IMG/VR virus record: IMGVR_UViG_3300035698_001710
Span: 1 to 23,689 of that record
Length of the DNA: 23,689 nucleotides
Strand: one strand, 5' to 3'
Source: a virus
Positions 2,382-23,295 of this stretch are shown in pieces. Every line of letters starts with the position of its first letter. The first letter of the stretch is position 1. Both the position numbers and the translations under genes were made by a program. Under the pieces are notes generated by a model. That model saw only the letters and a list, made by a program, of their open reading frames with translations. It ran no database searches and was not told the origin of the DNA.

Positions 2382-3593
2382 ATGAGCTTGTGGCGCAATG
2401 TTATTAGTTATTTTTCGGGCGGCACAACGCGGAGTGTGGGACAGCAAACATCTTCCCCGGGTTCATATGCAAACCAATCCGCAACGCCGGTAACAATAGA
2501 CTCCGCCTTACAATTATCCGCGGTGTGGGCCTGCACAAGATTGATTGCAGAATCCATAGGCTCTATGCCTATCAATGTTTATAAAAAGCATGATGATGGG
2601 GAGCTAGAGCTTTTTAATGACCACCCGCTTTCAAAATTATTCCGCGGTAAAATGAACCGGTGGCAGACTCGGCAAGAATATTTTGAATCTATAACTTATC
2701 AATATGTCATGCAGGGCAATAACTATTCTGTGATACAACGCAATTCAAATGGTGCAATAATTTCCCTTATTCCCCTTATGACTCCACAAATGTGTGTTGA
2801 ATTACAAGAGGATGGCCGCGTACAATACCAATACACCGAGGATAAGGGATTGCGCGTATATGACCAAAACACCATTTGGCACAACAAGCTTTTTGGTAAT
2901 GGCATTATCGGGCTATCACCATTGGCATATGCCCGCAATAGCGTTGGTGTAGGGCAGGCCGCGGAGCTTGCCACAACCAAGGTTTATAAAAATGGCGGGA
3001 AGCCATCCGGCTTGCTGATGATTGATAAGGTTTTGAAGCCGGAACAAAGGGACCAGATAAAAAAGAACTTTTCAGAACTTACAGAGGGCAATGACGACAG
3101 GCTTTTTGTTTTGGAAGCTGATATGAAATATGAACAAGTTTCATTATCACCACAAGATATTGAGCTTTTGGCATCGCGGCGTTTTCAGATTGAGGATATT
3201 TGTAGATTTTGGGGTGTGCCATCGGTTTTGGTTAATGACACTCAGGCCGGAACACCCCTTGGCACCGGCATTGAACAGATTATACAGGGCTTTTATAAAT
3301 TCAATTTAAAGCCCTATCTTTCAAGATATGAAGCATCTTTAGAATGTAATTTATTAACCGCAAAAGAACGCGACACGATGAAAATACAATTTGATTTTAA
3401 ATCATTGTTGCGCCCGGACCAGACCGACAGAATCACGTCCGGCAAAGAGGGCGTGACAGGCGGGATTTTAACGCCCAATGAAGTAAGATTAAATGAGGGT
3501 TTGAAAGGGCTGGCCGGTGGTGATAAACTATATCTGCAACAGCAAATGACTCCCATTGAAGAATTGCAGGACATGGAAAGAAAAAAAGGTTAA
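2382..3593 (+). CDS. Portal protein (HK97 family)
   Basis: Dodecameric portal ring at the single vertex through which DNA enters and leaves; it is the docking point for terminase and connector. The 403-residue protein is of usual length for HK97-type portals. It has the family's early segment (VDSALQLSAVWACTRLIAESIG, about residues 39-60, slightly different here), the central DRLFVLE...Y..VSLSPQD region, and the EDICRFWGVP segment (about 270-282) followed by N..... ..G.GIEQ, which is highly typical. AAAGG at 2369-2373 lies 8 bases before the ATG. The next gene, the protease, begins 3 bases after the stop, a standard head-gene order. Confidence 0.94.
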   Translation: MSLWRNVISYFSGGTTRSVGQQTSSPGSYANQSATPVTIDSALQLSAVWACTRLIAESIGSMPINVYKKHDDGELELFNDHPLSKLFRGKMNRWQTRQEYFESITYQYVMQGNNYSVIQRNSNGAIISLIPLMTPQMCVELQEDGRVQYQYTEDKGLRVYDQNTIWHNKLFGNGIIGLSPLAYARNSVGVGQAAELATTKVYKNGGKPSGLLMIDKVLKPEQRDQIKKNFSELTEGNDDRLFVLEADMKYEQVSLSPQDIELLASRRFQIEDICRFWGVPSVLVNDTQAGTPLGTGIEQIIQGFYKFNLKPYLSRYEASLECNLLTAKERDTMKIQFDFKSLLRPDQTDRITSGKEGVTGGILTPNEVRLNEGLKGLAGGDKLYLQQQMTPIEELQDMERKKG

Positions 3594-4463: not shown

Positions 4464-5669
4464 ATGGACAAAGTACCAGCAACTACAACAGACCCGGCGG
4501 AGCTTGTTACACAGGCAACCGCCTCAATCGACGCTTTTCTTGAAAAGCAAAAAGAAGTTGAAGCTAATATTAAAACTTCGGTTGAAGCCAGTGGAGCGGA
4601 CGCGAAAGCCGCAGTGACACGGGCAGATGAACTTGCAAAAGAACTTTCTGGCATTTCCGCGCAGATTTTGGACATTGAACAAAATATGACGGATAACGTC
4701 ATGTCCGGCAAAGCTGCGATTGAAACGCTTGGTGAAATGGTTATTAAGTCGGATGCCTTTAAGCAATTCGCACAAGGTAGCCAAACCAAACTGCAATTCC
4801 AGGCCAACACTATTATTAGTCAGGAAGGTTCACCGCTTGAAAATGCCGACACCCTTGTGCAAACACAGCGCTTGGCCGGTATTATTCCCGGTGCGTTTCG
4901 CACGTTGCGGGTTTCTGACATTCTCCCACAAGGCACAACTGGCAGCAATATGGTGGAATACACCCGTGAATTGCTGTTTACGAACGCCGCGGCAGAAACC
5001 AATGAAGGTGTTGCAAGCCCGGAATCAACTCTAACTTTTGAGTTGGTACAGGCCGCTGTCAAAGACATTACGCACCTTATTAAAGCTTCGCGTAATGTTC
5101 TTGAAGATGCACCGGCACTGCAAAGCTATATTGACACCCGCTTGCGCTATGGTGTTGATTTGAAAGTTGACACTCAGCTTTTGACAGGTAACGGCACAAA
5201 CCCTAATATTTCCGGCATTACAGACACCGGCAATCATACGGTGTTTACACCGCTGACAGGGGAAAATGCGCTTGATAGCCTTAACCGGGCCATTGAGGCG
5301 GTACACACTGCGGATTACGCGCCGAGTGCTATTATCTTGAACCCTGCGGATTGGTTTGCAATAAGCCGCCTTAAGGTAAATGCTGGGACAGATGATCGCT
5401 ATATCATTGGCAACCCATCATCTGCAATGGGGCCGGTTCTTTGGGGGTTACCGGTTGTGGTTTCTAACGCCATGACAGCCGGTTCATTTGTCACTGCCGC
5501 TTTTGATATCGCCTATCAAGTGTGGAACCGCAAGGAAACGATGGTTGAAATGTACGAACAGGACGAAGATAACGCTCAAAAGCGGCTTTTGACGATTAGT
5601 GCAACGGCCCGCAAGGCACTGGCGATTTACCGCCCAGCCTCCGCGCAATCTGGATTGCTGACTGTTTAA
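4464..5669 (+). CDS. Major capsid protein (HK97 fold, with delta domain)
   Basis: Main shell subunit, 401 residues, of the HK97 (Phage_capsid) family. Residues 1 to about 110 form an acidic, helical coiled-coil-like region, the delta domain that acts as an internal scaffold and is removed by the protease encoded upstream. The mature shell part probably starts near residues 111-116, just before ANTIISQEGSP; the exact cut site cannot be read from sequence. The later part carries the usual features: a domain with TLVQTQRLAGIIPGAFRTL, then DILPQG, then an A-domain stretch with ILNPADW (about 292-298) and LWGLPVVVS (about 324-332), both highly characteristic. No separate scaffold gene is present, which fits the fused delta domain. 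It is followed by a strong terminator. Confidence 0.95.
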   Translation: MDKVPATTTDPAELVTQATASIDAFLEKQKEVEANIKTSVEASGADAKAAVTRADELAKELSGISAQILDIEQNMTDNVMSGKAAIETLGEMVIKSDAFKQFAQGSQTKLQFQANTIISQEGSPLENADTLVQTQRLAGIIPGAFRTLRVSDILPQGTTGSNMVEYTRELLFTNAAAETNEGVASPESTLTFELVQAAVKDITHLIKASRNVLEDAPALQSYIDTRLRYGVDLKVDTQLLTGNGTNPNISGITDTGNHTVFTPLTGENALDSLNRAIEAVHTADYAPSAIILNPADWFAISRLKVNAGTDDRYIIGNPSSAMGPVLWGLPVVVSNAMTAGSFVTAAFDIAYQVWNRKETMVEMYEQDEDNAQKRLLTISATARKALAIYRPASAQSGLLTV

Positions 5670-5700: not shown

Positions 5701-5729
5701 AAAGGGCACCGGAATTGGTGCCCTTTTTT
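5701..5729 (+). terminator. Intrinsic terminator after major capsid gene
   Basis: AAAGGGCACC (5701-5710) pairs perfectly with GGTGCCCTTT (5717-5726) around a six-base loop, and T's run to 5729. This is a textbook rho-independent terminator. It probably limits transcription beyond the capsid gene, so that head genes are expressed more than connector and tail genes. Confidence 0.85.
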
Positions 5730-5751: not shown

Positions 5752-6141
5752 ATGAAAAACCCCATAAAAATCCCTTCAATTCTACCCAATCGCAAGGTTG
5801 AAATCCGCTTTACCAAAGAAACAACAAGCGCATTGCTTGGCAATATTTGGGCCGGGCGCTTAACAACACTGAATTATTCAACAGCAAAACGCTTTGTTGA
5901 AGCGGGTGTTGCTGAATTTGTAGATACAAAGCTTGTAAAGCCAAAAGAAACACCACCGGTTGAAGAAGATACAAAGCTTTCTTTGGTGGATGCCCTTGCT
6001 TCATTAAAGCATGATGATGATGCACACTGGACCAAAGGCGGCGCACCGGATTTAAACGTAGTCAAAGAGCTTACCGGCACGGCCCATAAGCGGGCGGATG
6101 TTGAGGCCGCGGCACCGGACTTGGTGCGTAAAGAGGCATAA
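5752..6141 (+). CDS. Small head-region protein of unknown function (HI1506-like C-terminus)
   Basis: A 129-residue protein between capsid and connector. The N-terminal half (PNRKVEIRFTKE... ...GVAEFVD, residues 10-60) looks like a small beta-rich domain. After a Pro/Glu-rich linker comes a C-terminal helical segment with DDDAHWTKGGAPDLNVVKEL and ADVEAAAPDLVRK. This 'HWT..G.P.v..v..LtG...tra.ieaaaP' pattern recurs in small phage head-region proteins, including Mu-like ones (HI1506-type). No biochemical role is known to me. GAGG at 5738-5741 precedes the ATG, and the gene is the first one downstream of the capsid terminator/promoter. It may be a minor head or connector-associated protein. Confidence 0.7.
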   Translation: MKNPIKIPSILPNRKVEIRFTKETTSALLGNIWAGRLTTLNYSTAKRFVEAGVAEFVDTKLVKPKETPPVEEDTKLSLVDALASLKHDDDAHWTKGGAPDLNVVKELTGTAHKRADVEAAAPDLVRKEA

Positions 6142-6419
6142 TGTCATTAGTTACACTCGCACAGGCTAAAGAGCATTTACGTGTAACGCACACCAATGAA
6201 GATGTTGTTTTGCAGCTTTACATGGATGCCGCGGATGAAGTGATTGAAAACTTCCTTAACACCGCCAATCCGGCGCAAACCTACGCCATCAAAGCCGCGG
6301 CGCTTTTGTTGATTGGTTCTATGTATGAGAACAGGGAAGCGCATGTTGAAAAGGATTTAAAGGACAATCCGGCGGTTTCAAGCCTGCTCTATCCGTATAG
6401 AGAGGATATAGGTTTTTAA
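6141..6419 (+). CDS. Head-tail connector protein (gp6/QLRG-like)
   Basis: Adaptor ring that binds below the portal after packaging and forms the first layer of the neck. The 92-residue, all-helical protein has the family pattern: an N-terminal T.(A)QAKEHLRV segment (residues 5-15), an acidic helix with DVVLQLYMDAADEVIENFL (21-39), and a central YAIKAAALLLIGSMYENRE segment (48-66). The C-terminal SSLLYPYRED stretch is typical of HK97 gp6-type connectors. Its ATG overlaps the stop of the preceding gene (TAATG). In related phages the head-closure gene follows at once. Here that gene is 5.7 kb away, at 12094. Confidence 0.88.
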   Translation: MSLVTLAQAKEHLRVTHTNEDVVLQLYMDAADEVIENFLNTANPAQTYAIKAAALLLIGSMYENREAHVEKDLKDNPAVSSLLYPYREDIGF

Positions 6420-6773
6420 ATGGACCCCATCAAACGAGATTTAAAGCTTTTCAAAGGCGCAACATTCACAATCAATTTCCGCATAAAGGTTGGTGGAGCG
6501 GCGCTTGATGTTAGTGCATATGAATTTTATTTTAAGGCAGTTGAAATAAACGCAGGCGGGACAGAGGTTTTAAGCGCCTCCACAGAAGATAGCCCCGCCA
6601 CAATCACGGTGGATTCAACGGATGGATATTTGGTAGATATAACCATATCCAAAGTTGACACCGCGGCCATCACAGAAACCGGCGAATTGTATTTTGAGAT
6701 TGATTATGTTGATGAAACCGGCGAACGTATCCGCCTATGGATTGGTGACATAAGACTAATTGAGGCGGCTTGA
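6420..6773 (+). CDS. Ig-like / BppU-N-like appendage protein
   Basis: A 117-residue beta-rich protein. It opens with RDLKLFKGATFTINFRI and continues LDVSAYEFYFKAVE, then TITVDSTDGYLVDITIS and GELYFEIDYVDETG. This matches the common phage pattern 'DL.i.rGdtf...f......pvDLtgy....qir' followed by an Ig-like sandwich, related to the N-terminal domain of baseplate upper protein (BppU). Such proteins usually sit next to fibre or collagen-like genes and are thought to anchor or assemble them, and here the collagen-like protein follows directly. The ATG abuts the connector stop. The role in the virion is inferred from the family pattern and from context. Confidence 0.6.
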   Translation: MDPIKRDLKLFKGATFTINFRIKVGGAALDVSAYEFYFKAVEINAGGTEVLSASTEDSPATITVDSTDGYLVDITISKVDTAAITETGELYFEIDYVDETGERIRLWIGDIRLIEAA

Positions 6774-6774
6774 T

Positions 6775-7575
6775 ATGACCACCACAAAAACCCTGGAAAT
6801 AACCCAAAGCATTCAAACCGTTGAAATTGTTGATAATGGAATTTCTGTAGAAATTCGGCAAGGCATCCGCGGGGGAAAAGGCAACACCGGAGACACGGGT
6901 GCAGATGGTAGCACCGGCGCGACAGGCGGCACCGGCGCGGCGGGTGCAGATGGCAGCACGGTTTTAAATGGTACGGGAGTCCCGTCAAGCGGGCTGGGCG
7001 GTGATGGAGATTTTTACATTGACACTGCGGCATCTGATTTATACGGGCCAAAGGCCGCGGGGGCTTGGGGTTCTGCAACGTCCCTTATAGGTGCAACAGG
7101 CGGCACCGGGGCCACCGGCGAGGGTGTGCAAACAGGCGGCGCAACCGGGCAGATATTAAGAAAAGCCTCTGGTACTAATTTTGATACAGAATGGCATGAC
7201 CCTGTAAAATACGTTCAAATTGTTGTTACGGCCCCGGCGGGTGCGGTGGAAACCGGCGATGATGCAGCGCAATTCATAGCACCCGCTGTTCTTAATGGTT
7301 ATAATATTACAAGCATTGAAGCCGGTGTTAATGTGGTTTCAAGCAGTGGGGCAATAACCTTGCAGCTTAGAAATGACACCGCCGGGGCAAATATTCTTTC
7401 AACAGCCTTAACCATTGATGTTAGTGAAAATAATTCATCTACCGCCGCCACGCCCGCCGCTATTGACACCGCGGAGGATGATTTATCCACCGGTGATGTT
7501 ATCGCGGTGGATGTTGACGGAGCCGGAACCGGTGCGCAGGGGCTACAAATTACCCTGGGCGTGACAAAGCCATAG
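6775..7575 (+). CDS. Collagen-like virion fibre protein
   Basis: A 266-residue fibre-like protein. Residues 1-29 are a short beta-rich head. Residues 30-62 are eleven uninterrupted Gly-X-Y triplets (GIR GGK GNT GDT GAD and so on), rich in Thr, Ala and Ser, which should form a collagen-type triple helix. Then comes a segment known from many phage fibres (GTGVPSSGLGGDGDFYID, YGPKAAGAWG, about 66-99), four more triplets (106-117), and a GGATGQILRKASGTNFDTEW trimerisation-type motif (121-140). The C-terminus (145-266) is a probable beta-sandwich knob. I take ATG 6775, just after the upstream stop and preceded by GAGGCGG, over a TTG at 6760 inside the upstream gene. Its Thr/Ser-rich triplets make it a candidate substrate for the glycosyltransferases downstream; that is inference. 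Confidence 0.85.
   Translation: MTTTKTLEITQSIQTVEIVDNGISVEIRQGIRGGKGNTGDTGADGSTGATGGTGAAGADGSTVLNGTGVPSSGLGGDGDFYIDTAASDLYGPKAAGAWGSATSLIGATGGTGATGEGVQTGGATGQILRKASGTNFDTEWHDPVKYVQIVVTAPAGAVETGDDAAQFIAPAVLNGYNITSIEAGVNVVSSSGAITLQLRNDTAGANILSTALTIDVSENNSSTAATPAAIDTAEDDLSTGDVIAVDVDGAGTGAQGLQITLGVTKP
6862..6960 (+). repeat. Collagen-type Gly-X-Y triplet repeat
   Basis: Eleven consecutive codon triplets starting with a glycine codon, written as degenerate GC-rich nine-base units (for example variants of GGCACCGGC and GGTGCAGAT). A second, shorter block of four triplets lies at 7090-7125 in the same gene. Such repeats often change copy number between related phages. Confidence 0.85.
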
Positions 7576-7584
7576 GGGGCCGCA

Positions 7585-7974
7585 GTGTTTTATAATAATG
7601 CGCCATTAACCGATTTGGAAGCTTACGGGCTTGCTCTTACTGGAAACGCACAAGAGGATTGCAAAGTTTGCACCCTTATTGTTGCCCCGGCATTAGAGCA
7701 AGACCCAAACATGACATGGGGAACATTCCTTGATCTTATACAAACCTACCCGGCTGAATACGCCCAAGCATGGGCTTGGATCATTATAAACTTTGAGCAT
7801 GTTATTCATTACACAGCGAAAGATAAGCTTATATCCGCCGCCGCCATGAGCGAAGAGGGAGCGCGGGAGCTGTATATGTCAGAAGCATCTTTAAGTCAAG
7901 ACGAGAAAGATGTGTTACTAGATGCTGTGGCGGATGCGCCTAATTTCTTGGCGGAAATGCTGGCGAAACCATGA
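7585..7974 (+). CDS. Unknown small protein between fibre and beta-sandwich genes
   Basis: A 129-residue protein I do not recognise. It starts at GTG 7585, with AGGGGGC just upstream (7574-7580); no ATG lies near the start of the open frame. Residues 1-60 contain a CKVC pair (C26, C29) and hydrophobic stretches. Residues 60-85 include an aromatic-rich YAQAWAWIIINFEHVIHY segment. The C-terminal third is acidic and helical (EARELYM..., LSQDEKDVLLDAVADA; first residues differ slightly). There is no signal peptide. The stop overlaps the next ATG (ATGA), so it is translationally coupled to the beta-sandwich protein gene. It could be a fibre chaperone or a minor structural part, but nothing in the sequence proves either. 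Confidence 0.6.
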   Translation: MFYNNAPLTDLEAYGLALTGNAQEDCKVCTLIVAPALEQDPNMTWGTFLDLIQTYPAEYAQAWAWIIINFEHVIHYTAKDKLISAAAMSEEGARELYMSEASLSQDEKDVLLDAVADAPNFLAEMLAKP

Positions 7975-8543
7975 CCGTATCTGTTGTAACCATCGCCGCG
8001 CAAACCTTTATCAATAAGGCCGGGTTGGGTCAGGATTGGATAAACCCCGGCAATGTAGCGGTTCAGGACGGTGTAGGGGCTTCGATTGATCCGCTTACTG
8101 GGTTTACTAGTGATCCTCTTCACGCAACAAATTTAGATTTCACCCCATACCCGTCCGATACTGTGCTATCCGAAAGCTCTGGCGCTTGCATTGTTATGAC
8201 GGTTCGTAAACGAAACCTGAGTACCGGATGGAATGGCAACGGCAAAGCCACAGATGGTAACCATTCTCTAGTCGAGGCTGGCTCGCCAATCGGGGCGAAT
8301 AAGAAAACCGGGACAAACTGGCCGAACAGCTATGGCAACACGTTTTATGTTTGGACATTGGCAGAGATAAACGGCTTGGGGTTTACCACGCTTGCGGACT
8401 TTGGAACAGATTTCGGGGTTACGGCTGCCGTGACAGACAATTTTAAAAACTCACAAGACCCACAAGTTTATATTGATACAATTACAATTCAGATGGCTCT
8501 GGAAATTCCGCAGGGGGTTGCGCAACAGGTAATTTATTTCTAA
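7971..8543 (+). CDS. Beta-sandwich virion protein (putative decoration or appendage)
   Basis: A 190-residue beta-rich protein with no predicted enzyme motifs. It has a pattern I associate with a jelly-roll type domain in phage fibre and virion proteins: W-x-NP-x-N followed by a DG segment (WINPGNVAVQDG, about residues 24-35), then an 'L.ATNLDF..YPSDTV' strand, a variable middle, 'WTLAEINGLGFTTLADFG', and a closing strand 'YIDTITIQMALEI'. It is placed between a collagen-like protein and glycosylation genes, so it may be a fibre tip, a capsid decoration or a neck protein. The ATG overlaps the upstream stop. Its virion location is inferred, and a host-glycan-binding role would be equally consistent. 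Confidence 0.55.
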   Translation: MTVSVVTIAAQTFINKAGLGQDWINPGNVAVQDGVGASIDPLTGFTSDPLHATNLDFTPYPSDTVLSESSGACIVMTVRKRNLSTGWNGNGKATDGNHSLVEAGSPIGANKKTGTNWPNSYGNTFYVWTLAEINGLGFTTLADFGTDFGVTAAVTDNFKNSQDPQVYIDTITIQMALEIPQGVAQQVIYF

Positions 8544-8584
8544 GGTTAAGAGACTTGAATCTTAAGATGGGTAAGGTGAACACC

Positions 8585-9160
8585 ATGAAAACTGCCATAT
8601 GTATTGCGTCCGGCCCCTCTTTAACCAAAGAGGATGTTGCATATTGTCGCGGCAAAGGCAAAGTTTATGTTGTGAAAGAGGGCTATCTTTTGGCCCCGTG
8701 GGCGGATGTTCTATATGCCGCAGACACAGACTGGTGGGATTTGCAAAATGGATGCCCGGATTTTAAAGGCGAAAAATGGACGGTTTCGCATGAATCACAT
8801 TTAAAATATGGTTTAGATTTTGTGCGGCCCAGGGCCAGCCCGCCGCATTTTTGGTGTGAGGATATACGGTTTGGGGTTGCAACCGGTGGCAATAGCGGCT
8901 TTCAGGCTATGAACCTTGCGTATTTGCAGGGTGCGGAAAGAATAATATTATTGGGTTATGATTATGGTTTTGATGCAAAAAAAGACCATAAACATTGGTG
9001 GGACGAAGAACACCCCAGGGAATCCCGGTTTAGCAATTATTCTAACTGGATAAAATATATGATTAAAGCCAAGCCGTTAATAAAAATTCCGGTATTAAAT
9101 GCGAGTCGACAAACCGCAATCCCCTGTTTTGAACGGGTAGAATTAATAGATGTTTTATGA
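8585..9160 (+). CDS. DUF115/MAF-like putative glycosyltransferase
   Basis: A 191-residue protein of a conserved phage family often left unnamed. It starts ICIASGPSL (residues 5-13), a nucleotide-binding-like 'C.asGPSL' turn, continues with ADVLYAADTDWWD (40-52), and has GGNSGFQAMNLAYL (101-114) followed by RIILLGYDYGFD (119-130). The GGNSG and LLGYD blocks resemble DUF115/MAF proteins, a group tied to sialic- or pseudaminic-acid glycan transfer. I take ATG 8585 because the conserved N-terminus begins there and AAGGTGA (8573-8579) stands 5 bases before it; a TTG at 8555 also has a purine-rich upstream but adds non-conserved residues. Its stop overlaps the next ATG. Activity is inferred from the family; the sugar is unknown. 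Confidence 0.65.
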   Translation: MKTAICIASGPSLTKEDVAYCRGKGKVYVVKEGYLLAPWADVLYAADTDWWDLQNGCPDFKGEKWTVSHESHLKYGLDFVRPRASPPHFWCEDIRFGVATGGNSGFQAMNLAYLQGAERIILLGYDYGFDAKKDHKHWWDEEHPRESRFSNYSNWIKYMIKAKPLIKIPVLNASRQTAIPCFERVELIDVL

Positions 9161-9894
9161 CTCTTTTTATTCATAGGGTTGTTGGGAAACCACGGTCAAA
9201 GCGTTGGTGTGAAGCCTTTGCAAAAGGTAGCGGCGGCGAGATAGTGGACACGTACACGCCGGGAATTTGGGCCGGATACGGTGCCCAGGCGCTGCACGAT
9301 GGCTTGCAGGAGAGTATTAAAGCCGGGTTTGATTATTATTTTGGGGATCATGCATATTTTGGCCGCGAAAAATATTGGCGAGTCACAAAAAACGCTTATC
9401 AACATGACGGGCGCGGCCCGGCGGACTATGAAAGGCTAAAGCTTTTTTATACAAAGGCGGCAAAGTGGAATAAGGGAGGGCGCAATATTGTTATTTGTAC
9501 GCAAACCCCGCAATATTATGAACGCCTGGGCATCCCGGATTGGCTGGAATCAACTATAAACGCCTTGCGGCTTTATACAGATAGGCCCATTATAATACGT
9601 GTAAAAAATACAGCGTATCCGCTGGCCCGTGATTTGAGAGATGCACATTGTTTGGTTTGTTGTACATCTAATGCGGCGGTTGAGTCCTTGATGTGTGGCG
9701 TGCCGGTTATAACCACCGGGGATTGTGCAGCGTCAAGAATGGGATTACATAGCCCGGCTAATGTGGAGAATCCATATTATCCGGATAATCGTATGGAATG
9801 GGCCGGTGCATTGGCAGCAAATCAATGGACCTTAAGGGAGATTGCCGCGGGGCAGTGTTGGGATAAAATGCAAAATATGGAGAATCTAAAATGA
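9157..9894 (+). CDS. Phage glycosyltransferase-like protein (capsule-synthesis type)
   Basis: A 245-residue protein of a family seen in many phages. It carries YYFGDHAYFGREKYWRVTKN (60-79) followed by AYQHDG (80-85), a signature of the family. Its C-terminal half looks like the nucleotide-sugar half of a GT-B fold: IVICTQTPQYY (111-121), RPIIIRVKN (143-151), and above all AHCLVCCTSNAAVESLMCGV (163-182) with PVITTGDCAA following. The S-N-A-A-x-E-x-x-x-x-G-x-P pattern is that of capsule-type transferases. The ending NQWTLREIAAGQCW is also family-typical. ATG 9157 overlaps the upstream stop (ATGA), and its own stop overlaps the methyltransferase ATG. The substrate is unknown. Confidence 0.68.
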   Translation: MTLFIHRVVGKPRSKRWCEAFAKGSGGEIVDTYTPGIWAGYGAQALHDGLQESIKAGFDYYFGDHAYFGREKYWRVTKNAYQHDGRGPADYERLKLFYTKAAKWNKGGRNIVICTQTPQYYERLGIPDWLESTINALRLYTDRPIIIRVKNTAYPLARDLRDAHCLVCCTSNAAVESLMCGVPVITTGDCAASRMGLHSPANVENPYYPDNRMEWAGALAANQWTLREIAAGQCWDKMQNMENLK

Positions 9895-10544
9895 TTAAAT
9901 TTGATAAATGGTATATGCCGGACGGTGAAGAACATTTGACAAAATGGATGAACACAGTGGGCAACCGCGTTGATGGGAGGCTTACATATCAGCACGGTAA
10001 ATATCATATGGCCAAGGCCCATATTAAAAGCTTTAACACTGTGATTGATGTGGGGGCGCATGTTGGGTTGTGGTCTTATTTCTTTGCTCTGGATTTTAAA
10101 ACCTTGCAAGCGTTTGAACCGCTGGAAATCCACCGGGAATGCTGGCGCAAAAATCTGGAAGGTTTAGAAAACGCCCATATGCACCCCTTTGCGCTGGGCG
10201 AGGAGGCGGCTTTTGTTGCGCTGGAAACGCGCACCGATGGTTCAAGCGGCGACACGCAAGTAAAGCCTGGGGAGGTGGGGACAATAGAAATGAAGCGCCT
10301 GGATGAATATGATTTTCAAGATGTTGATTTGATTAAAATTGACTGTGAAGGTTATGAAGAATTTGTTTTACGCGGCGCGGTTGACACGCTGGAACGCTGC
10401 AAACCGTGCGTGATTGTTGAACAAAAACGCGATATGTCCGGGCGCTATGGATGCCAGAAACTATCTGCGGTGCGCTATTTACAGGATTTGGGCGCAGAAG
10501 TGAGAACGGAAATTTCAGGGGATTACATTTTATCATGGACATAG
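9891..10544 (+). CDS. FkbM-family SAM-dependent methyltransferase
   Basis: A 217-residue methyltransferase that transfers a methyl group from S-adenosylmethionine, typically to a sugar hydroxyl. The Rossmann motif I is VIDVGAHVGLWS (51-62), motif II has the acidic E76 in QAFEP, and the FkbM block is LDEYDFQDVDLIKIDCEGYE (137-156) with EFVLRGA following. FkbM enzymes commonly O-methylate sugars in glycan clusters, so here it likely caps or tunes the sugar added by its neighbours. Coupled to both sides: ATGA overlap with the gene before, and the stop (10542-10544) lies within the start of the small membrane peptide gene that follows. Confidence 0.88.
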   Translation: MIKFDKWYMPDGEEHLTKWMNTVGNRVDGRLTYQHGKYHMAKAHIKSFNTVIDVGAHVGLWSYFFALDFKTLQAFEPLEIHRECWRKNLEGLENAHMHPFALGEEAAFVALETRTDGSSGDTQVKPGEVGTIEMKRLDEYDFQDVDLIKIDCEGYEEFVLRGAVDTLERCKPCVIVEQKRDMSGRYGCQKLSAVRYLQDLGAEVRTEISGDYILSWT

Positions 10545-10633
10545 ATATTTATATTGCCTGTGTTCTTGGTGTTATTATCGGTGTTTTAATCGCCGGGTGG
10601 GTTTTGGAGTGTGTTTGTTATGGGCCTTGGTGA
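10535..10633 (+). CDS. Possible 32-residue single-pass membrane peptide
   Basis: Small open frame, ATG 10535 to stop 10631-10633, encoding a short acidic N-terminus (MDIDIY) followed by one strongly hydrophobic helix (IACVLGVIIGVLIAGWVL) and a Cys-rich tail (ECVCYGPW). AGGGGA (10517-10522) lies 12 bases upstream. It overlaps the methyltransferase stop by 10 bases and the likely start of the GT9-like gene (10620) by 14. It exactly fills what would otherwise be a 75-base gap in a tightly packed operon. It may anchor or gather the glycan enzymes at the membrane. With so few residues, it could also be chance. Confidence 0.42.
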   Translation: MDIDIYIACVLGVIIGVLIAGWVLECVCYGPW

Positions 10634-11378
10634 TGAAATAATGGCGCTGGGCCGTTGCGAAGCTGAATTTGAGCGCACCGGTATGGCCCACTCAATTAGG
10701 ACAATGACAAACGCCAAGCGGGATTTTGAAATATGGCACGGCAACCCAGCTTATAACCCTAATGCTGCAAAATATATCATTGATGGCGGCGGTGCCCGGC
10801 CATATATCAAAGGATGGCATGGCAGGCAGTGCAGATTCAATCTTGATTACCGCGCCCGCGCCGGCCGCATTTATTTTGATGATGGATATATTGAAAGATG
10901 CGCTTTAAAACAACCCTATGCCATTGTTGCGCCCAATCTTAAAAAGGGTGCGTCTGTCAATAAGAATTGGGGTTTAAAGCGCTGGGAACAGGTGATAAAA
11001 GATTTTCCTGTTCCCGTTTATCAATTAGTGCAAGACCATAGGGAGCCGGTTATTGATGGCGCTATTCCCTATCAAACCCCGGAAATCTATATGGCGCTGG
11101 CCGCTATTAAAGGCGCGGCGCTTGTGATGTGTAATGAAGGGGGAACGCACCATATAGCCGCGTCTATGCGCAGGCCCGCGGTTGTTATATTTGGTTCTTT
11201 TGTACCACCCCAGGTAACGGGTTATGAATCACATTACAATGTTGCGGTTGAAACGGATGAAGGGTATTGTGGACGGTGGGACCATTGCGAACATTGCGCC
11301 GCCGCGCTGGCCTCAATTAACCCCGATGATGTAAGGGAAAAGGCGCTTTTAATGATGGATACTGCGCATGGGAATTAA
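10620..11378 (+). CDS. GT9 (heptosyltransferase-like) glycosyltransferase
   Basis: A 252-residue GT-B fold transferase related to the ADP-heptose:LPS heptosyltransferase family (GT9). It opens with MGLGDEIMALG (1-11), the family's N-terminal 'G.GD......' glycine loop. The C-terminal domain starts near PYAIVAPNLKKGASVNKNWG (99-118) and RWEQVI, and ends with the sugar-nucleotide site NEGGTHHIAASMRRPAVVIF (172-191) with GSF.PPQVTGY after it. It is shorter than usual (about 340 residues): the first Rossmann domain is reduced to about 90 residues. A CGRWDHCEHC cluster near the C-terminus could bind metal. I take ATG 10620, 10 bases after GGAG (10606-10609), rather than GTG 10611. The sugar donor is unknown; heptose is only the family's usual donor. 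Confidence 0.8.
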   Translation: MGLGDEIMALGRCEAEFERTGMAHSIRTMTNAKRDFEIWHGNPAYNPNAAKYIIDGGGARPYIKGWHGRQCRFNLDYRARAGRIYFDDGYIERCALKQPYAIVAPNLKKGASVNKNWGLKRWEQVIKDFPVPVYQLVQDHREPVIDGAIPYQTPEIYMALAAIKGAALVMCNEGGTHHIAASMRRPAVVIFGSFVPPQVTGYESHYNVAVETDEGYCGRWDHCEHCAAALASINPDDVREKALLMMDTAHGN

Positions 11379-12093
11379 TGCTTTTATTGGGTTTGATACA
11401 AGATTTTCAATGGCCTATGCCGTAACAATTCATTCATTGTTGCAATATTCCAGCTTTTCCTATGAAGAAACGCACCCCATTTTATTACCACATTTACAGG
11501 GCATGGGCATTTATGACCGGCCCACAACAAAAAGAAACGGGCAGATGTGGGACGATATAAGCGGCGCACCGATGGCCACGGAGTTTGCTATATCCCGGTT
11601 CTTTATTCCGTTCATGAATAACTTTCAAGGGTGGTCATTGTTTTGTGATAGTGATTTTTTGTTTAGGACAGATATAGATGATTTGCTTGCACAGATTGAT
11701 GATAAATATGCCGTTATGTGCGTTAAGCATGAGCATTGCCCCACAGAAGCCAAAAAGATGGATGGACAATTACAAACATTATACAAGCGCAAAAATTGGT
11801 CCTCTATGATGCTGATTAATAACGCCCATCCAAAAAACTCCGTCTTAACGCCCGCTTTGCTTAATGCCGTGCCTGGGCGGGACTTACATGCTTTTAACTG
11901 GCTGGAAGATGATGAAATTGGCGAGGTAGGGCCGGAATGGAACTGGCTGGAAGGTCATAGTGATAATTCGATAGATGCAAAAATTGTGCATTTTACCCGC
12001 GGCACGCCGGATGTTGCGGGCTATGAAGATGTCCCATATGCGGACGAATGGCATGATGTTGCAAATGAAATTACAATGTTTGGAGAGGGTTAA
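11368..12093 (+). CDS. GT8-like (GT-A fold) glycosyltransferase
   Basis: A 241-residue nucleotide-diphospho-sugar transferase. It begins FIGFDTRFSMAYAVTIHSLL (6-25), the usual start of GT8-like enzymes where the donor base is held. It has RFFIPFMNNFQGWSLFCDSD (77-96) containing the metal-binding DxD (D94-S-D96) and then DFLFRTDIDDLL. A later 'AKIVHFTRGTPD' segment supplies the conserved His that usually completes the metal site. This layout matches glycosyltransferases found in phage genomes. The ATG overlaps the end of the GT9-like gene by 11 bases, and its stop abuts the head-closure gene. It is the last enzyme of the cassette. Donor and acceptor are not visible. Confidence 0.82.
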   Translation: MGINAFIGFDTRFSMAYAVTIHSLLQYSSFSYEETHPILLPHLQGMGIYDRPTTKRNGQMWDDISGAPMATEFAISRFFIPFMNNFQGWSLFCDSDFLFRTDIDDLLAQIDDKYAVMCVKHEHCPTEAKKMDGQLQTLYKRKNWSSMMLINNAHPKNSVLTPALLNAVPGRDLHAFNWLEDDEIGEVGPEWNWLEGHSDNSIDAKIVHFTRGTPDVAGYEDVPYADEWHDVANEITMFGEG

Positions 12094-12432
12094 ATGCGCG
12101 GCGGAGACTTGGACCAACTTGTTTATTTTGAATCCCCATCCCGCGTAAATGTGGAGGGTGAGGTTACAACAACATGGATTGATGCATCCGGGGATTCCCC
12201 AAGAAGCCCTGATTATGCAATGATTTTAACACAGCGCGGCTCAGAAGCTTTTGAGGCAGCACGCACGCATTCAAAGGGTATCATCCGCGGCAAGGTGCGT
12301 TTCCGCAGTGATGTGCAAACAGACTGGCGCATTGAATGGGATGGACAGACATATAACATCCAGGATGTTGATAGAACCAAGCGCCGCGATGGTGAATTAT
12401 GGTTTACCGCTGAATTGTTAGAGGCCTATTAA
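12094..12432 (+). CDS. Head closure / head-tail joining protein (SPP1 gp16-like)
   Basis: Small ring protein that seals the connector after DNA packaging. The 112 residues show the head-tail joining family pattern: GDLDQLVYFES (4-14) with a beta strand, then a WID-containing turn (V.TTWID, about 25-31), a helix with GSEAFEAARTHSKGIIRGKV (49-68; the last strand continues RFRSD), then WRIEWDGQTYNIQDVDRTKR (77-96) and a closing WFTAELLE strand. The 'R..W.G..Y.I..v......r...l.l......' ending is characteristic. It should be the immediate partner of the gp6-like connector at 6141-6419, from which it is separated by the fibre/glycosylation block. Confidence 0.85.
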   Translation: MRGGDLDQLVYFESPSRVNVEGEVTTTWIDASGDSPRSPDYAMILTQRGSEAFEAARTHSKGIIRGKVRFRSDVQTDWRIEWDGQTYNIQDVDRTKRRDGELWFTAELLEAY

Positions 12433-13305: not shown

Positions 13306-13719
13306 ATGACAGCCGGAATCGTAGCACAAGGCTTTTTGCTTGAAATTGGTCCATCTGGTGAGTCCCCCGCGGGTCTTACGGAAGTGTCGGAAGTAACTAA
13401 TTTTAGTGGTTTTGATGGACAGGCCGCAGAAATTGAATTTACAAATCTCCAATCCTCCGCCAAAGAGTTTAAAATGGGATTGCAGGATTTTGGCAACTTT
13501 CAGGTTGATGTTAATTATCTGCCTGCTGATGCCGGACAGGTTGAGGCCCGCGCCGCAAAGGCCGCAGGGACGCAAAAAGCGTTTCTTGCAACACTGAGCG
13601 ATGGCACAACAGCAACATTTGAAGGTTTTGTTTTATCAAATCCGCTTTCCGGCGGTGTTGATGGCAAGGTTGATTCAAGTTTTGTTGTGAGAATCACCGG
13701 TTCTGTAACATTTGCGTAA
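13306..13719 (+). CDS. Major tail (tube) protein
   Basis: Subunit of the hexameric rings that form the tail tube, 137 residues, near the usual length for small tube proteins. It starts MTAGIVAQGFLLEIG, has LTEVSEVTNFSGFDGQAAEI (23-42) and FKMGLQDFGNFQVDVNYLPAD (about 57-77; the strand that pairs between rings), and ends with a beta-rich segment FEGFVLSNPLSGGVDGKVDS (105-124) then VRITGSVTFA. The 'g.....i..v.....ld...eeie.T...s..ke...gl.d.g......y' profile is typical for phage tail tube proteins. AAGGA stands at 13292-13296. Its neighbours, tail completion before and chaperone after, support the call. Confidence 0.85.
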   Translation: MTAGIVAQGFLLEIGPSGESPAGLTEVSEVTNFSGFDGQAAEIEFTNLQSSAKEFKMGLQDFGNFQVDVNYLPADAGQVEARAAKAAGTQKAFLATLSDGTTATFEGFVLSNPLSGGVDGKVDSSFVVRITGSVTFA

Positions 13720-13803: not shown

Positions 13804-14145
13804 ATGGACAACCCGCAAAATGGTGAAGTTTTACTTGAAATGAACGGCGATGCTTACACGCTCAAATATGATTGGGCGGCGCTGGGCAAGCTTAAGGCCG
13901 CATTCACTGATGAAGATATTGAAAAGGTGGTTAATGGCGCAAACATGGAAATCATGGCAGATGTTTTGTCCATAGGCTTATATGCGCACCACGGCATCAT
14001 TTCCAAAGATAAAATCATTGAGTTTTCACCGCCGCTGGTTGTTGCGGTTCGGGCCATTGATAAAGCATTATCATTTGCTTATTTTGGACCAGAAGAACCG
14101 CCGGAAGTAAATGAAGAAGAAAAAAAAAGCAAAAAGGCGAAGTAA
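13804..14145 (+). CDS. Tail assembly chaperone, short form (gpG-like)
   Basis: A 113-residue soluble chaperone that coats the tape measure protein during tail assembly. The N-terminal part reads as a small beta strand (GEVLLEMNGDAYTLKYDW) and then helices with LGKLKAAFTDEDIEKVV and a hydrophobic VAVRAIDKALSFAYFG. This matches the chaperone family also seen in gene transfer agents (Phage_TAC type). The C-terminus is a charged Glu/Lys tail encoded over a run of nine A (14120-14128). A fraction of ribosomes should slip -1 there to make the longer form. It is placed between tube and tape measure, as the lambda G/GT genes are. Confidence 0.82.
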   Translation: MDNPQNGEVLLEMNGDAYTLKYDWAALGKLKAAFTDEDIEKVVNGANMEIMADVLSIGLYAHHGIISKDKIIEFSPPLVVAVRAIDKALSFAYFGPEEPPEVNEEEKKSKKAK

Positions 14146-14483
14146 AAGAAAAGCGCGATGAAATCACAGCCGCGCTAAAATCCGCTTTTTATATTGGAAT
14201 TTCCATTAAAGATTTTTGGGCTTTAACACCGTGGCAGCTATTCACCGCGATTGCGGCATATGGCGAAGTTTTAGAGGCAAAATATAACCATGATGCCTGG
14301 TTGATGTATAATAATGCAGTGCTTGGGCGGGTTAAAAAGATGCCGCCCTTTAAAAACTATTTATTTAGCGCAACAAAGAAGGTGAACACAGTGAATGAAA
14401 CTGCTATTATTGAGAGAATGACAGCACATAATGTGCAAATTTCGCAACTCGAAAGCATAAAATCACATGGTTCAGGTAGCTAA
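14115..14483 (+). CDS. Tail assembly chaperone extension (T domain), reached by -1 frameshift
   Basis: This open frame is in the -1 frame relative to the short chaperone. It runs from after a TGA at 14112-14114 to a TAA at 14481-14483, and has no ATG, GTG or TTG before 14301. Its product reads ...RDEITAALKSAFYIGISIKD, then FWALTPWQLFTAIAAYGEVL and ...DAWLMYNNAVLGRVKKMPPF, a pattern typical of the T part of chaperone fusions ('W.LTp.el...............r..a.law..aal.R.KkLPp'). Slipping on A AAA AAA at 14121-14127 gives a 226-residue G-T fusion: 108 residues, then 118 in the new frame. It overlaps the tape measure start by 17 bases. The TTG at 14301 would cut this domain in half and is not a credible start. 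Confidence 0.82.
   Translation, partial: RRKKKQKGEVKEKRDEITAALKSAFYIGISIKDFWALTPWQLFTAIAAYGEVLEAKYNHDAWLMYNNAVLGRVKKMPPFKNYLFSATKKVNTVNETAIIERMTAHNVQISQLESIKSHGSGS
14120..14128 (+). promoter_or_regulatory. -1 ribosomal frameshift slippery site
   Basis: A run of nine A inside the last codons of the short chaperone. In frame it contains the perfect heptamer A AAA AAA followed by AGC, where both tRNAs can re-pair after a -1 slip. It lies inside the only window (14115-14142) where a shift joins the two frames. An AGCGCG/CGCGCT hairpin (14152-14157 with 14171-14176) lies about 23 bases downstream, farther than usual for a stimulator, so its role is doubtful. Confidence 0.75.
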
Positions 14484-22704: not shown

Positions 22705-23295
22705 ATGTTTTATGTTTTATTAATCGTTTTAAGTGTGATGGGTGGCGTGTTTTACCGCTTTCGCGGGGGCTGGCCGGACATTCCGCGCCCGCTGGAACAA
22801 ATGCTTTTTTGTTCAATCTTTCTTTATATTCTTATATCCGGTGGGGCAATGTTGTTGCATTCCCTTATTGCTTATGGGCTGGCGGTATGGGCCACCACCA
22901 AGGGACACGGGAATAATATGGATTTGGGGCATTATGATAAGCCCGGGGATTTGGAATGGTATGAAAGCCTTATCCGGGGTTATTGGGACCGGCTGGGCGC
23001 ATACTGGTATGAGGCGCTGGGGCTTGCAATATCCGGCTTTGCAATAACCTGTATGCCGGGCCTTGTGCTTTCTTTCTATTATCCTGTTACCGGGCTGTTA
23101 ATCGCCCTTTCTGGCCTTACAAAGCCGCTGGCCTATATGATTGGTTGGGGGTTTCATCCAAAATACGACAACGGCATCATCAAATTCCATGTTGGAAATT
23201 TCATGGTAGATACAGCAACGGAGTGGGGCGAATTTCTGTTTGGTGTTTTTGTGTGGGGCATAGCGGCTTTCGTTATTCTATACGGAGTCTTATAG
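22705..23295 (+). CDS. Polytopic membrane protein of unknown function
   Basis: A 196-residue membrane protein. About five hydrophobic helices are visible: residues 1-17, 34-62 (one long or two), 104-126, 128-147 and 176-195. Between them lie a RFRGGWPDIPRP segment (18-29), a polar loop TKGHGNNMDLGHYDKPGDLE (65-84) and an aromatic YWYEALG turn. The RGGW..IPRP and GHG...DLG motifs recur in unnamed phage membrane proteins near lysis genes. The length and number of helices exceed those of most holins. A role in lysis or in exclusion of other phages is possible but not shown. AAAAGG stands before the ATG. Confidence 0.65.
   Translation: MFYVLLIVLSVMGGVFYRFRGGWPDIPRPLEQMLFCSIFLYILISGGAMLLHSLIAYGLAVWATTKGHGNNMDLGHYDKPGDLEWYESLIRGYWDRLGAYWYEALGLAISGFAITCMPGLVLSFYYPVTGLLIALSGLTKPLAYMIGWGFHPKYDNGIIKFHVGNFMVDTATEWGEFLFGVFVWGIAAFVILYGVL

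Follow-up and report, generated by a model that had tools for sequence, protein, structure and literature searches.

What occupies the 5.7 kb between two genes that, in HK97, simply abut? In the window analysed here (the whole stretch of 23,689 nucleotides, positions 1 to 23,689 of IMG/VR virus record IMGVR_UViG_3300035698_001710), that distance separates the genes for the head-tail adaptor Ad1 (gp6-like) and the head-closure protein Hc1, which in L243, a relative with 55% identity in the major capsid protein (MCP), are only 29 bp apart. Because the genes abut in HK97 and nearly do so in L243, their separation is a real insertion. An earlier note on this DNA had described fibre and glycan-modification genes set into the head-tail joining genes, and this is borne out, as are its identification of both flanks and its open reading frames, every one of which lies on the plus strand where it had been placed (better gene starts are 6775, 8585 and 10620). 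The questions that follow are whether fibre and enzymes belong together, and what the enzymes might decorate.

A two-part insertion in the head-tail joining genes

The insertion consists of two separable modules, A (6420-8543) and B (8585-12093), set among the genes of an HK97-type phage (Table 1) whose MCP is ~38% identical to HK97 gp5. Between the capsid gene and the insertion stands a probable intrinsic terminator with an 11-bp stem and a T run (-19.6 kcal/mol, z -4.7), at a position where terminators are also annotated in HK97 and PMG1. The junctions had been characterised as mostly ATGA-type overlaps; overlaps of 4 bp are real at three of them (7971, 9157 and 9891), but "mostly" was an overstatement, as GT9 and GT8 overlap by 11 bp and the remaining genes abut or leave gaps of 1-75 bp. 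The small hydrophobic reading frame, once suggested to encode a membrane peptide, is absent from L002, the nearest relative, and is probably not a gene.

Table 1. Features of the insertion and its surroundings, in window coordinates.
Feature	Coordinates	Strand	Evidence or remark
Major capsid protein (MCP), HK97 type	4464..5669	+	TIGR01554 123.8 bits; phrog_10 3e-55
Probable intrinsic terminator	5701..5726	+	3' of capsid gene, upstream of insertion
Head-tail adaptor Ad1 (gp6-like), left flank	6141..6419	+	phrog_40 1.3e-23; PF05135 44.4 bits
Module A: LtfC-like beta-sandwich	6420..6773	+	phrog_1084 5.8e-7; PF23926 LtfC 21.5 bits (cut-off 27)
Module A: collagen-like fibre	6775..7575	+	Gly-X-Y repeats; weak collagen/tail-fibre matches
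Module A: orphan protein, 129 aa	7585..7974	+	no family match
Module A: orphan protein, 190 aa	7971..8543	+	no family match
Module B: GT42/sialyltransferase-like, DUF115-related transferase ('D115')	8585..9160	+	phrog_4603 alpha-2,3-sialyltransferase 1.1e-34
Module B: GT-B transferase, KpsC/WbbB (beta-Kdo transferase)-like fold	9157..9894	+	AF2 model, Foldseek
Module B: FkbM-family O-methyltransferase	9891..10544	+	TIGR01444 75.3 bits; PF05050 52.9 bits; phrog_8156 1.7e-26
Small hydrophobic ORF	10535..10633	+	32 aa, one hydrophobic stretch; overlaps FkbM end and GT9 start
Module B: GT9 (heptosyltransferase-like) transferase, short form	10620..11378	+	PF01075 28.9 bits (cut-off 22)
Module B: GT8-like transferase	11368..12093	+	phrog_28018 4.2e-57; conserved DxD
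Head closure Hc1, right flank	12094..12432	+	phrog_25 1.3e-14
Major tail (tube) protein	13306..13719	+	phrog_158 7.9e-24

Module A opens with what is probably a fibre-anchoring protein, relatives of which pass the LtfC threshold in L241 (PF23926, 27.3 bits against a cut-off of 27) and match phrog_3304 ('L-shaped tail fiber protein assembly') in L305; its structure model is all-beta (pLDDT 67), and a fold search with that model gave no match below 0.001. In the adjoining fibre an N-terminus rich in LEI/VEI strand-like motifs precedes the Gly-X-Y repeats (runs at residues 30-62 and 106-117), and by analogy these motifs appear to resemble the LtfA strands that complete LtfC sheets in the lateral fibre of T5 and DT57C, where, as in the window, an LtfC-like beta-sandwich gene adjoins a fibre gene (PMC10713586). 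The window differs in its collagen-like fibre body, its sub-threshold LtfC match and its position beside neck genes. L241 carries an analogous fibre in the order Ad1, LtfC, collagen-like fibre, GT42-like gene. The 129-residue orphan returned no PHROG or Pfam match, no credible NCBIfam match and no relative in viral contigs; its 190-residue neighbour, possibly a fibre or decoration subunit, returned no PHROG, Pfam or NCBIfam match, and neither viral contigs nor phages yielded a relative of it. Module A would form a lateral fibre anchored by LtfC. The neck, which the earlier note gave with the capsid as the probable place of the appendage, is unproven: in the solved structure from DT57C the LtfC ring surrounds the tip of the tail (PMC10713586), and given LtfC the fibre may sit there instead.

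The enzymes of module B confirm the earlier description of glycosyltransferases accompanied by an FkbM methyltransferase: four transferase-like proteins plus FkbM. Two of the original assignments pointed in the right direction and can be sharpened. The 'DUF115-like' protein becomes GT42-like: a 31-sequence profile matches alpha-2,3/8-sialyltransferase chains over a Rossmann-like core (2.5e-4 to 1e-3), and since the score against PF01973 (MptE-like, DUF115) is 23.1 bits, below the cut-off of 34.6, we label it GT42/DUF115-like and not a DUF115 member. Among its relatives are P1 pmgO and the PMG1 relative of D3 Orf7. The 'capsule-type transferase' acquires a KpsC/WbbB-like fold; its sequence yields just a weak match to DUF6716 in Pfam, and its AF2 model (pLDDT 96.4, pTM 0.90) retrieves KpsC as best Foldseek match (1.4e-5, probability 1.00), followed by WbbB and KrkA, at TM scores of 0.4-0.6. 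Sequence profiles of the KpsC-like family found no Kdo transferase among PDB sequences. Both FkbM models score above cut-off, with a SAM motif and the DVGAHVGLWS and KIDCEGYE regions conserved; a 6-sequence GT9 profile matches LPS heptosyltransferase II (2.8e-6); and the last enzyme, which reaches 15.5 bits against PF01501 (cut-off 24.3) and is hence termed only GT8-like, belongs to a 10-sequence alignment in which D94-x-D96 is invariant.

Independence of fibre and enzymes at a shared site

The cassette recurs between capsid and neck genes in divergent phages, and the GT42-like gene is the anchor of the site. In 84 of 94 loci no other recognised gene comes between it and MCP/Ad1 upstream, and in a sample anchored on the MCP it occupies 41 of 52 complete MCP-to-Hc1 intervals, with six intervals empty. 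Where at least three cassette enzymes accompany any structural gene, 38 of 41 loci place them between MCP/Ad1 and Ad1/Hc1/neck genes. Contigs related to one another are counted here, and the loci do not represent separate events; the HMM set behind the counts was built without the last tail genes, and its labels for divergent head genes can be wrong. The content of the site is graded, from the GT42-like gene alone (L115), through its pairing with a KpsC-like gene (L240), to all five enzymes (L017, L242, L098), a series that fits an initiating enzyme plus add-ons.

Does the cassette serve the fibre beside it? The earlier note had the appendage glycosylated by a gene cluster of its own; in such a model the collagen-like protein would be a dedicated substrate alongside which the enzymes evolved. 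The modules do adjoin in the window and in L241, and near relatives fill the slot with small proteins, several of them beta-rich by sequence. Against this, dozens of loci have module B at the head-tail site and no fibre gene, the LtfC-type module occurs there without any module B enzyme in L305-L307, and the two orphan genes lack detectable relatives whereas B is conserved. The modules are independent and have one exchange site in common; dedicated fibre glycosylation is therefore rejected as the main reading, and we consider it quite improbable. Around 18 other loci with collagen-like proteins beside the GT42-like gene or Ad1 were rejected as support for a tie between enzymes and fibre: the proteins inspected have their matches in portal C-terminal or collagen/tail-fibre families, differ from the window fibre at their N-termini and are not clear relatives of it. 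Module B probably serves as an exchangeable kit that coats virions with sugar.

Candidate targets of the cassette

On balance we favour, with some reserve, a module B that is a late-expressed cytoplasmic kit glycosylating a virion protein, the fibre being optional. The GT42/DUF115-like protein would most likely add the first sugar in a manner akin to flagellin glycosylation by Maf proteins, its donor perhaps being a CMP-activated ulosonic or nonulosonic acid. Extending the chain with sugars from the host would fall to the KpsC-like, GT9 and GT8-like enzymes, and its O-methylation to FkbM. These donors are suggested by remote similarity (TM 0.4-0.6 for the KpsC-like fold, 2.5e-4 for the sialyltransferase match). 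That the host supplies the sugar nucleotides, as previously proposed, is likely: no CMP- or NDP-sugar synthetase gene (CTP_transf_3 or NTP_transferase homologue) occurs in 14 records, a set that includes the whole genome records of three named phages. As the enzymes are not dedicated to the fibre, a conserved and abundant virion protein is the likelier acceptor, the capsid and tail-tube proteins being candidates and the neighbouring fibre a possible substrate. The benefit could be that the coat shields particles against antibodies or defence, or keeps them from adsorbing to debris.

The same enzymes might instead act late in infection on a glycan of the host surface, be it LPS core, O-antigen or capsule; by hiding receptors, for instance, they would keep progeny from being wasted on debris or on superinfected cells. 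Bacterial relatives of GT9 and KpsC act on LPS or capsule, in keeping with the heptosyltransferase and Kdo transferase resemblances found here, and surface-polysaccharide loci commonly encode GT8-like and FkbM enzymes. Furthermore, another phage group (L005, L042, L061, L087) carries the same five enzymes beside a helicase gene, away from head genes, and CcrColossus has a similar set outside the head-tail joint, so the target cannot be read from position. Yet phages that otherwise diverge persistently keep the cassette within their capsid-neck operon, hydropathy gives none of its five enzymes a membrane segment, and the 14 records contain no gene for a GtrA-type flippase (PF04138), which also separates the window from serotype-conversion (gtr) clusters. 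We regard host-glycan modification as unlikely. Far less credible still is hypermodification of phage DNA, for which known DNA-acting phage glycosyltransferases (cited in PMC12619734) and a thymidylate-synthase-family gene in two of the 14 records speak; the other 12, including the three named phages over their whole record, have none, the enzymes are of LPS-transferase-like types and their genes lie in the late operon.

Virion glycosylation, in addition to site recurrence, the graded series and the lack of membrane segments, synthetases and GtrA, has a precedent. As two papers report, mycobacteriophages (Che8 and related cluster F1; Freeman et al. 2023) bear glycans on capsid and tail-tube C-termini, added, as would be the case here, by phage-encoded glycosyltransferases (PMC11256854, PMC12619734), and by analogy capsid or tail tube is again a likelier target than fibre. 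Inspected by eye, the MCP and tail-tube C-termini show nothing that separates cassette-bearing from cassette-free relatives. In mycobacteriophage Maravista the glycosyltransferase genes lie near the genome 3' end, whereas in the window a five-enzyme cassette that includes GT42-like, KpsC-like and FkbM enzymes lies in the head-tail joining genes. More speculatively, the MCP-Ad1-Hc1 joint of HK97-type phages could be a preferred docking site for exchangeable virion-modification islands. In this one, protein O-glycosylation started by the GT42/DUF115-like enzyme would be continued by the KpsC-, GT9- and GT8-like enzymes and FkbM, which would draw on the host's CMP-Kdo and ADP-heptose pools to give capsid or tail an O-methylated oligosaccharide resembling an LPS core. 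We hold that view only tentatively; if true, the virion is dressed in a likeness of the surface of its host.

Similar blocks in named phages

Glycosylated virions are documented for few phages. Were this cassette to coat virions, glycan-coated particles would be common among uncultivated HK97-type siphophages, and their genes recognisable from one conserved neighbourhood. The gene combination at this site had not been recognised as described, and no published description of the arrangement was found in the literature searched; a similar block is nevertheless already in GenBank, and D3-like phages of P. aeruginosa show a smaller version. The former belongs to Tetraselmis viridis virus S20 (NC_020840), annotated piecemeal only, which between MCP and Hc1 has two GT42-like genes, more glycosyltransferases and an FkbM match (identities to the window: MCP 40%, GT42-like 32%, FkbM 35%) but no match to the KpsC-, GT9- or GT8-like profiles. 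Pseudomonas phages D3/PMG1, D14C and Psp6 likewise have a GT42-like gene after MCP, and more glycosyltransferase and methyltransferase genes around the joining genes; their cassette is split around Ad1/Hc1 or differently composed, and the GT42-like gene alone matches the window's enzyme profiles. Caulobacter phage CcrColossus groups GT42-like, KpsC-like (two), GT8-like and GT9 genes with an annotated methyltransferase among them, but is a 280 kb large-genome phage in which a tail gene and the endolysin flank the block. If the cassette does coat virions, laboratory phages with the GT42-like gene would provide simple test systems for genes (P1 pmgO, D3 Orf7) whose annotation so far goes no further than 'putative morphogenetic function' or hypothetical. 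The pmgO product is a homologue at ~32% identity, in the different neighbourhood of the pmg operon.

Recurrence of the cassette at the capsid-neck joint

The window, a 23,689-base genome fragment from IMG/VR, runs from terminase, portal, protease and HK97-type capsid genes through joining and tail genes to fibre genes. The earlier note had claimed an insertion between the head-tail adaptor (Ad1) and head-closure (Hc1) genes, and this insertion is real: the same pair abuts in HK97 and lies 29 bp apart in L243, a viral locus whose major capsid protein (MCP) is 55% identical to that of the window, whereas here 5.7 kb divide it.

Features of the window and of a related fibre module
Feature	Position	Remarks
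Hairpin	5701-5726	just 3' of capsid gene
Ad1	6141-6419	left flank of insertion
LtfC-like protein (module A)	6420-6773	Pfam match below cut-off
Collagen-like fibre (module A)	6775-7575	LEI/VEI strand-like motifs at N-terminus, then Gly-X-Y repeats
GT42-like transferase (module B)	8585-9160	phrog_4603 alpha-2,3-sialyltransferase, 1.1e-34
KpsC-like transferase (module B)	9157-9894	almost without sequence match; structure model pLDDT 96
FkbM methyltransferase (module B)	9891-10544	above curated cut-offs
GT9 (module B)	10620-11378	above cut-off
GT8-like (module B)	11368-12093	below cut-off; invariant DxD
Hc1	12094-12432	right flank of insertion
Tail assembly chaperone with open -1 frame	13804-14480	
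Orphan protein	22705-23295	196 aa
Fibre module, L305 (also L306, L307)	4831-9895 of L305	complete; LtfC-like, short collagen-like adaptor, two fibres, DUF7936 protein

All open reading frames of loci found through the enzymes were searched with profiles built from the window genes. The synteny search that the earlier note had proposed places the cassette (module B) between MCP or Ad1 and Ad1, Hc1 or neck genes in 38 of the 41 loci that encode three or more of the enzymes together with a structural gene of any kind, counts here and below being of loci on partly related contigs rather than of independent events. Where an upstream portal, MCP or Ad1 was present, the next recognised gene after MCP/Ad1 was GT42-like in 84/94 loci. 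As the enzymes had served to find these loci, capsid protein was used to select a second sample; 41 of its 52 complete MCP-to-Hc1 intervals held a GT42-like gene, six were empty and five had other content, a proportion valid for that capsid group only, as the sample was seeded from cassette-bearing relatives. Site content is graded, from a GT42-like gene alone (L115), through the addition of a KpsC-like gene (L240), to all five enzymes, in the window's order in L017, L018, L242, L098 and L035 and permuted in L089 and L078. Enzymes of L035 share 46-52% identity with those of the window against 32% for MCP, while in L286 MCP (52%) and tail tube (64%) exceed the enzymes (38-45%); such unevenness suggests a cassette whose evolution or movement is independent of the capsid genes. 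In L108, a sulfotransferase-family gene (2624-3244) separates Ad1 from the GT42-like gene, suggesting sulfation as a further decoration at the site.

Other contexts occur. In a second phage group (L005, L042, L061, L087), the five-enzyme set directly follows a phrog_62 helicase gene rather than head genes, and CcrColossus carries a similar set, but between a tail gene and endolysin. In Tetraselmis viridis virus S20, the interval from MCP to Hc1 contains a pair of GT42-like genes, further glycosyltransferases and a match to FkbM, and in D3-like Pseudomonas phages a GT42-like gene follows MCP, with additional transferase genes lying around Hc1; thus, the arrangement is already present in sequence databases. 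The combination had seemed undescribed at this site, and in the literature searched no published description was found. What makes it interesting is that the cassette docks so widely, and in exchangeable form, between capsid and neck genes.

Fibre and enzymes as separate modules

Fibre and glycan enzymes do share the joint, as first interpreted, but they are two modules that occur separately rather than one linked unit. L241 has the window's order (Ad1, LtfC, collagen-like fibre, GT42-like); in near relatives (L099, L017, L018, L020, L024, L150) only one or two small proteins fill the fibre slot, and in most other loci the GT42-like gene directly follows Ad1, with a gap below 60 bp in 55 of 74 adjacencies. 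In L305-L307 the stretch from MCP to Ad1 holds a fibre module of LtfC type and none of the enzymes, one of the two L305 fibres bearing an S74 chaperone domain. Given fibreless cassettes and this enzyme-free module, the fibre is neither required for the enzymes nor always accompanied by them. The proposal that it is modified by its own cluster is therefore not supported, and the module A fibre is a distinctly improbable dedicated target, its company with the enzymes in the window and L241 notwithstanding.

Of the relatives of the LtfC-like protein, the one from L241 passes the LtfC Pfam cut-off and the one from L305 hits the family 'L-shaped tail fiber protein assembly'. In DT57C, two short strands from the fibre N-terminus complete the sheets of an LtfC ring that encircles the tail tip (PMC10713586). 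By this inferred likeness a lateral fibre is plausible for module A; since the DT57C ring sits at the tail tip, a neck position should not be assumed. No relatives of the 7585 and 7971 products were found. In ~18 loci (including L053, L074, L086, L097, L156, L163, L170 and L177), Gly-X-Y (collagen-like) proteins also immediately precede Ad1 or the GT42-like gene; their N-termini are unlike that of the window fibre, and several of these proteins match portal C-terminal families.

Proposed virion glycosylation

Homologues of the GT42-like gene include P1 pmgO and the D3/PMG1 Orf7 gene, and a 31-relative profile matches alpha-2,3/8-sialyltransferase chains (2.5e-4 to 1e-3) across the N-terminal GPSL motif and central SG region. 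The KpsC-like model matches KpsC, WbbB and KrkA, all Kdo transferases (probability near 1, TM ~0.4-0.6). Hydropathy gave no membrane segment in any of the five enzymes. The earlier remark that sugar-nucleotide synthesis genes are absent is borne out in 14 records, including the whole records of three named phages, none of which yielded a CMP-sugar synthetase, an NDP-sugar pyrophosphorylase or a member of the GtrA family; positive controls in well-known genomes were detected for each family.

The best supported reading, and on balance a probable one, is a cytoplasmic kit that would glycosylate a conserved virion protein late in infection, drawing sugar nucleotides from the host. The graded site content suggests that the GT42-like enzyme would act first. 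Of the candidate acceptors, capsid or tail tube would be likeliest, given the mycobacteriophage analogy and since fibreless carriers have both in common; Maf flagellin glycosylation may offer a further analogue. If of the kind proposed here, as we rather think, the system belongs to a known type, phage-encoded virion glycosylation. Modification of host LPS by the same cassette is a good deal less likely, and modification of DNA very improbable, a thymidylate-synthase-family gene occurring in only 2 of the 14 records.

Other features of the window

The hairpin behind the capsid gene is strong and terminator-like (-19.6 kcal/mol, z -4.7), and terminators are annotated at the same place in the HK97 and PMG1 records; capsid expression may thus exceed that of the genes downstream. 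The orphan protein, without a PHROG match, follows the tail collar fibre and has a hydrophobic segment at its C-terminus. The tail assembly chaperone frame ends in an A-rich stretch, gaagaaaaaaaaagcaaaaagg, from which the -1 frame is open to about 14480, a pattern that a programmed frameshift of the lambda G/GT type would produce.
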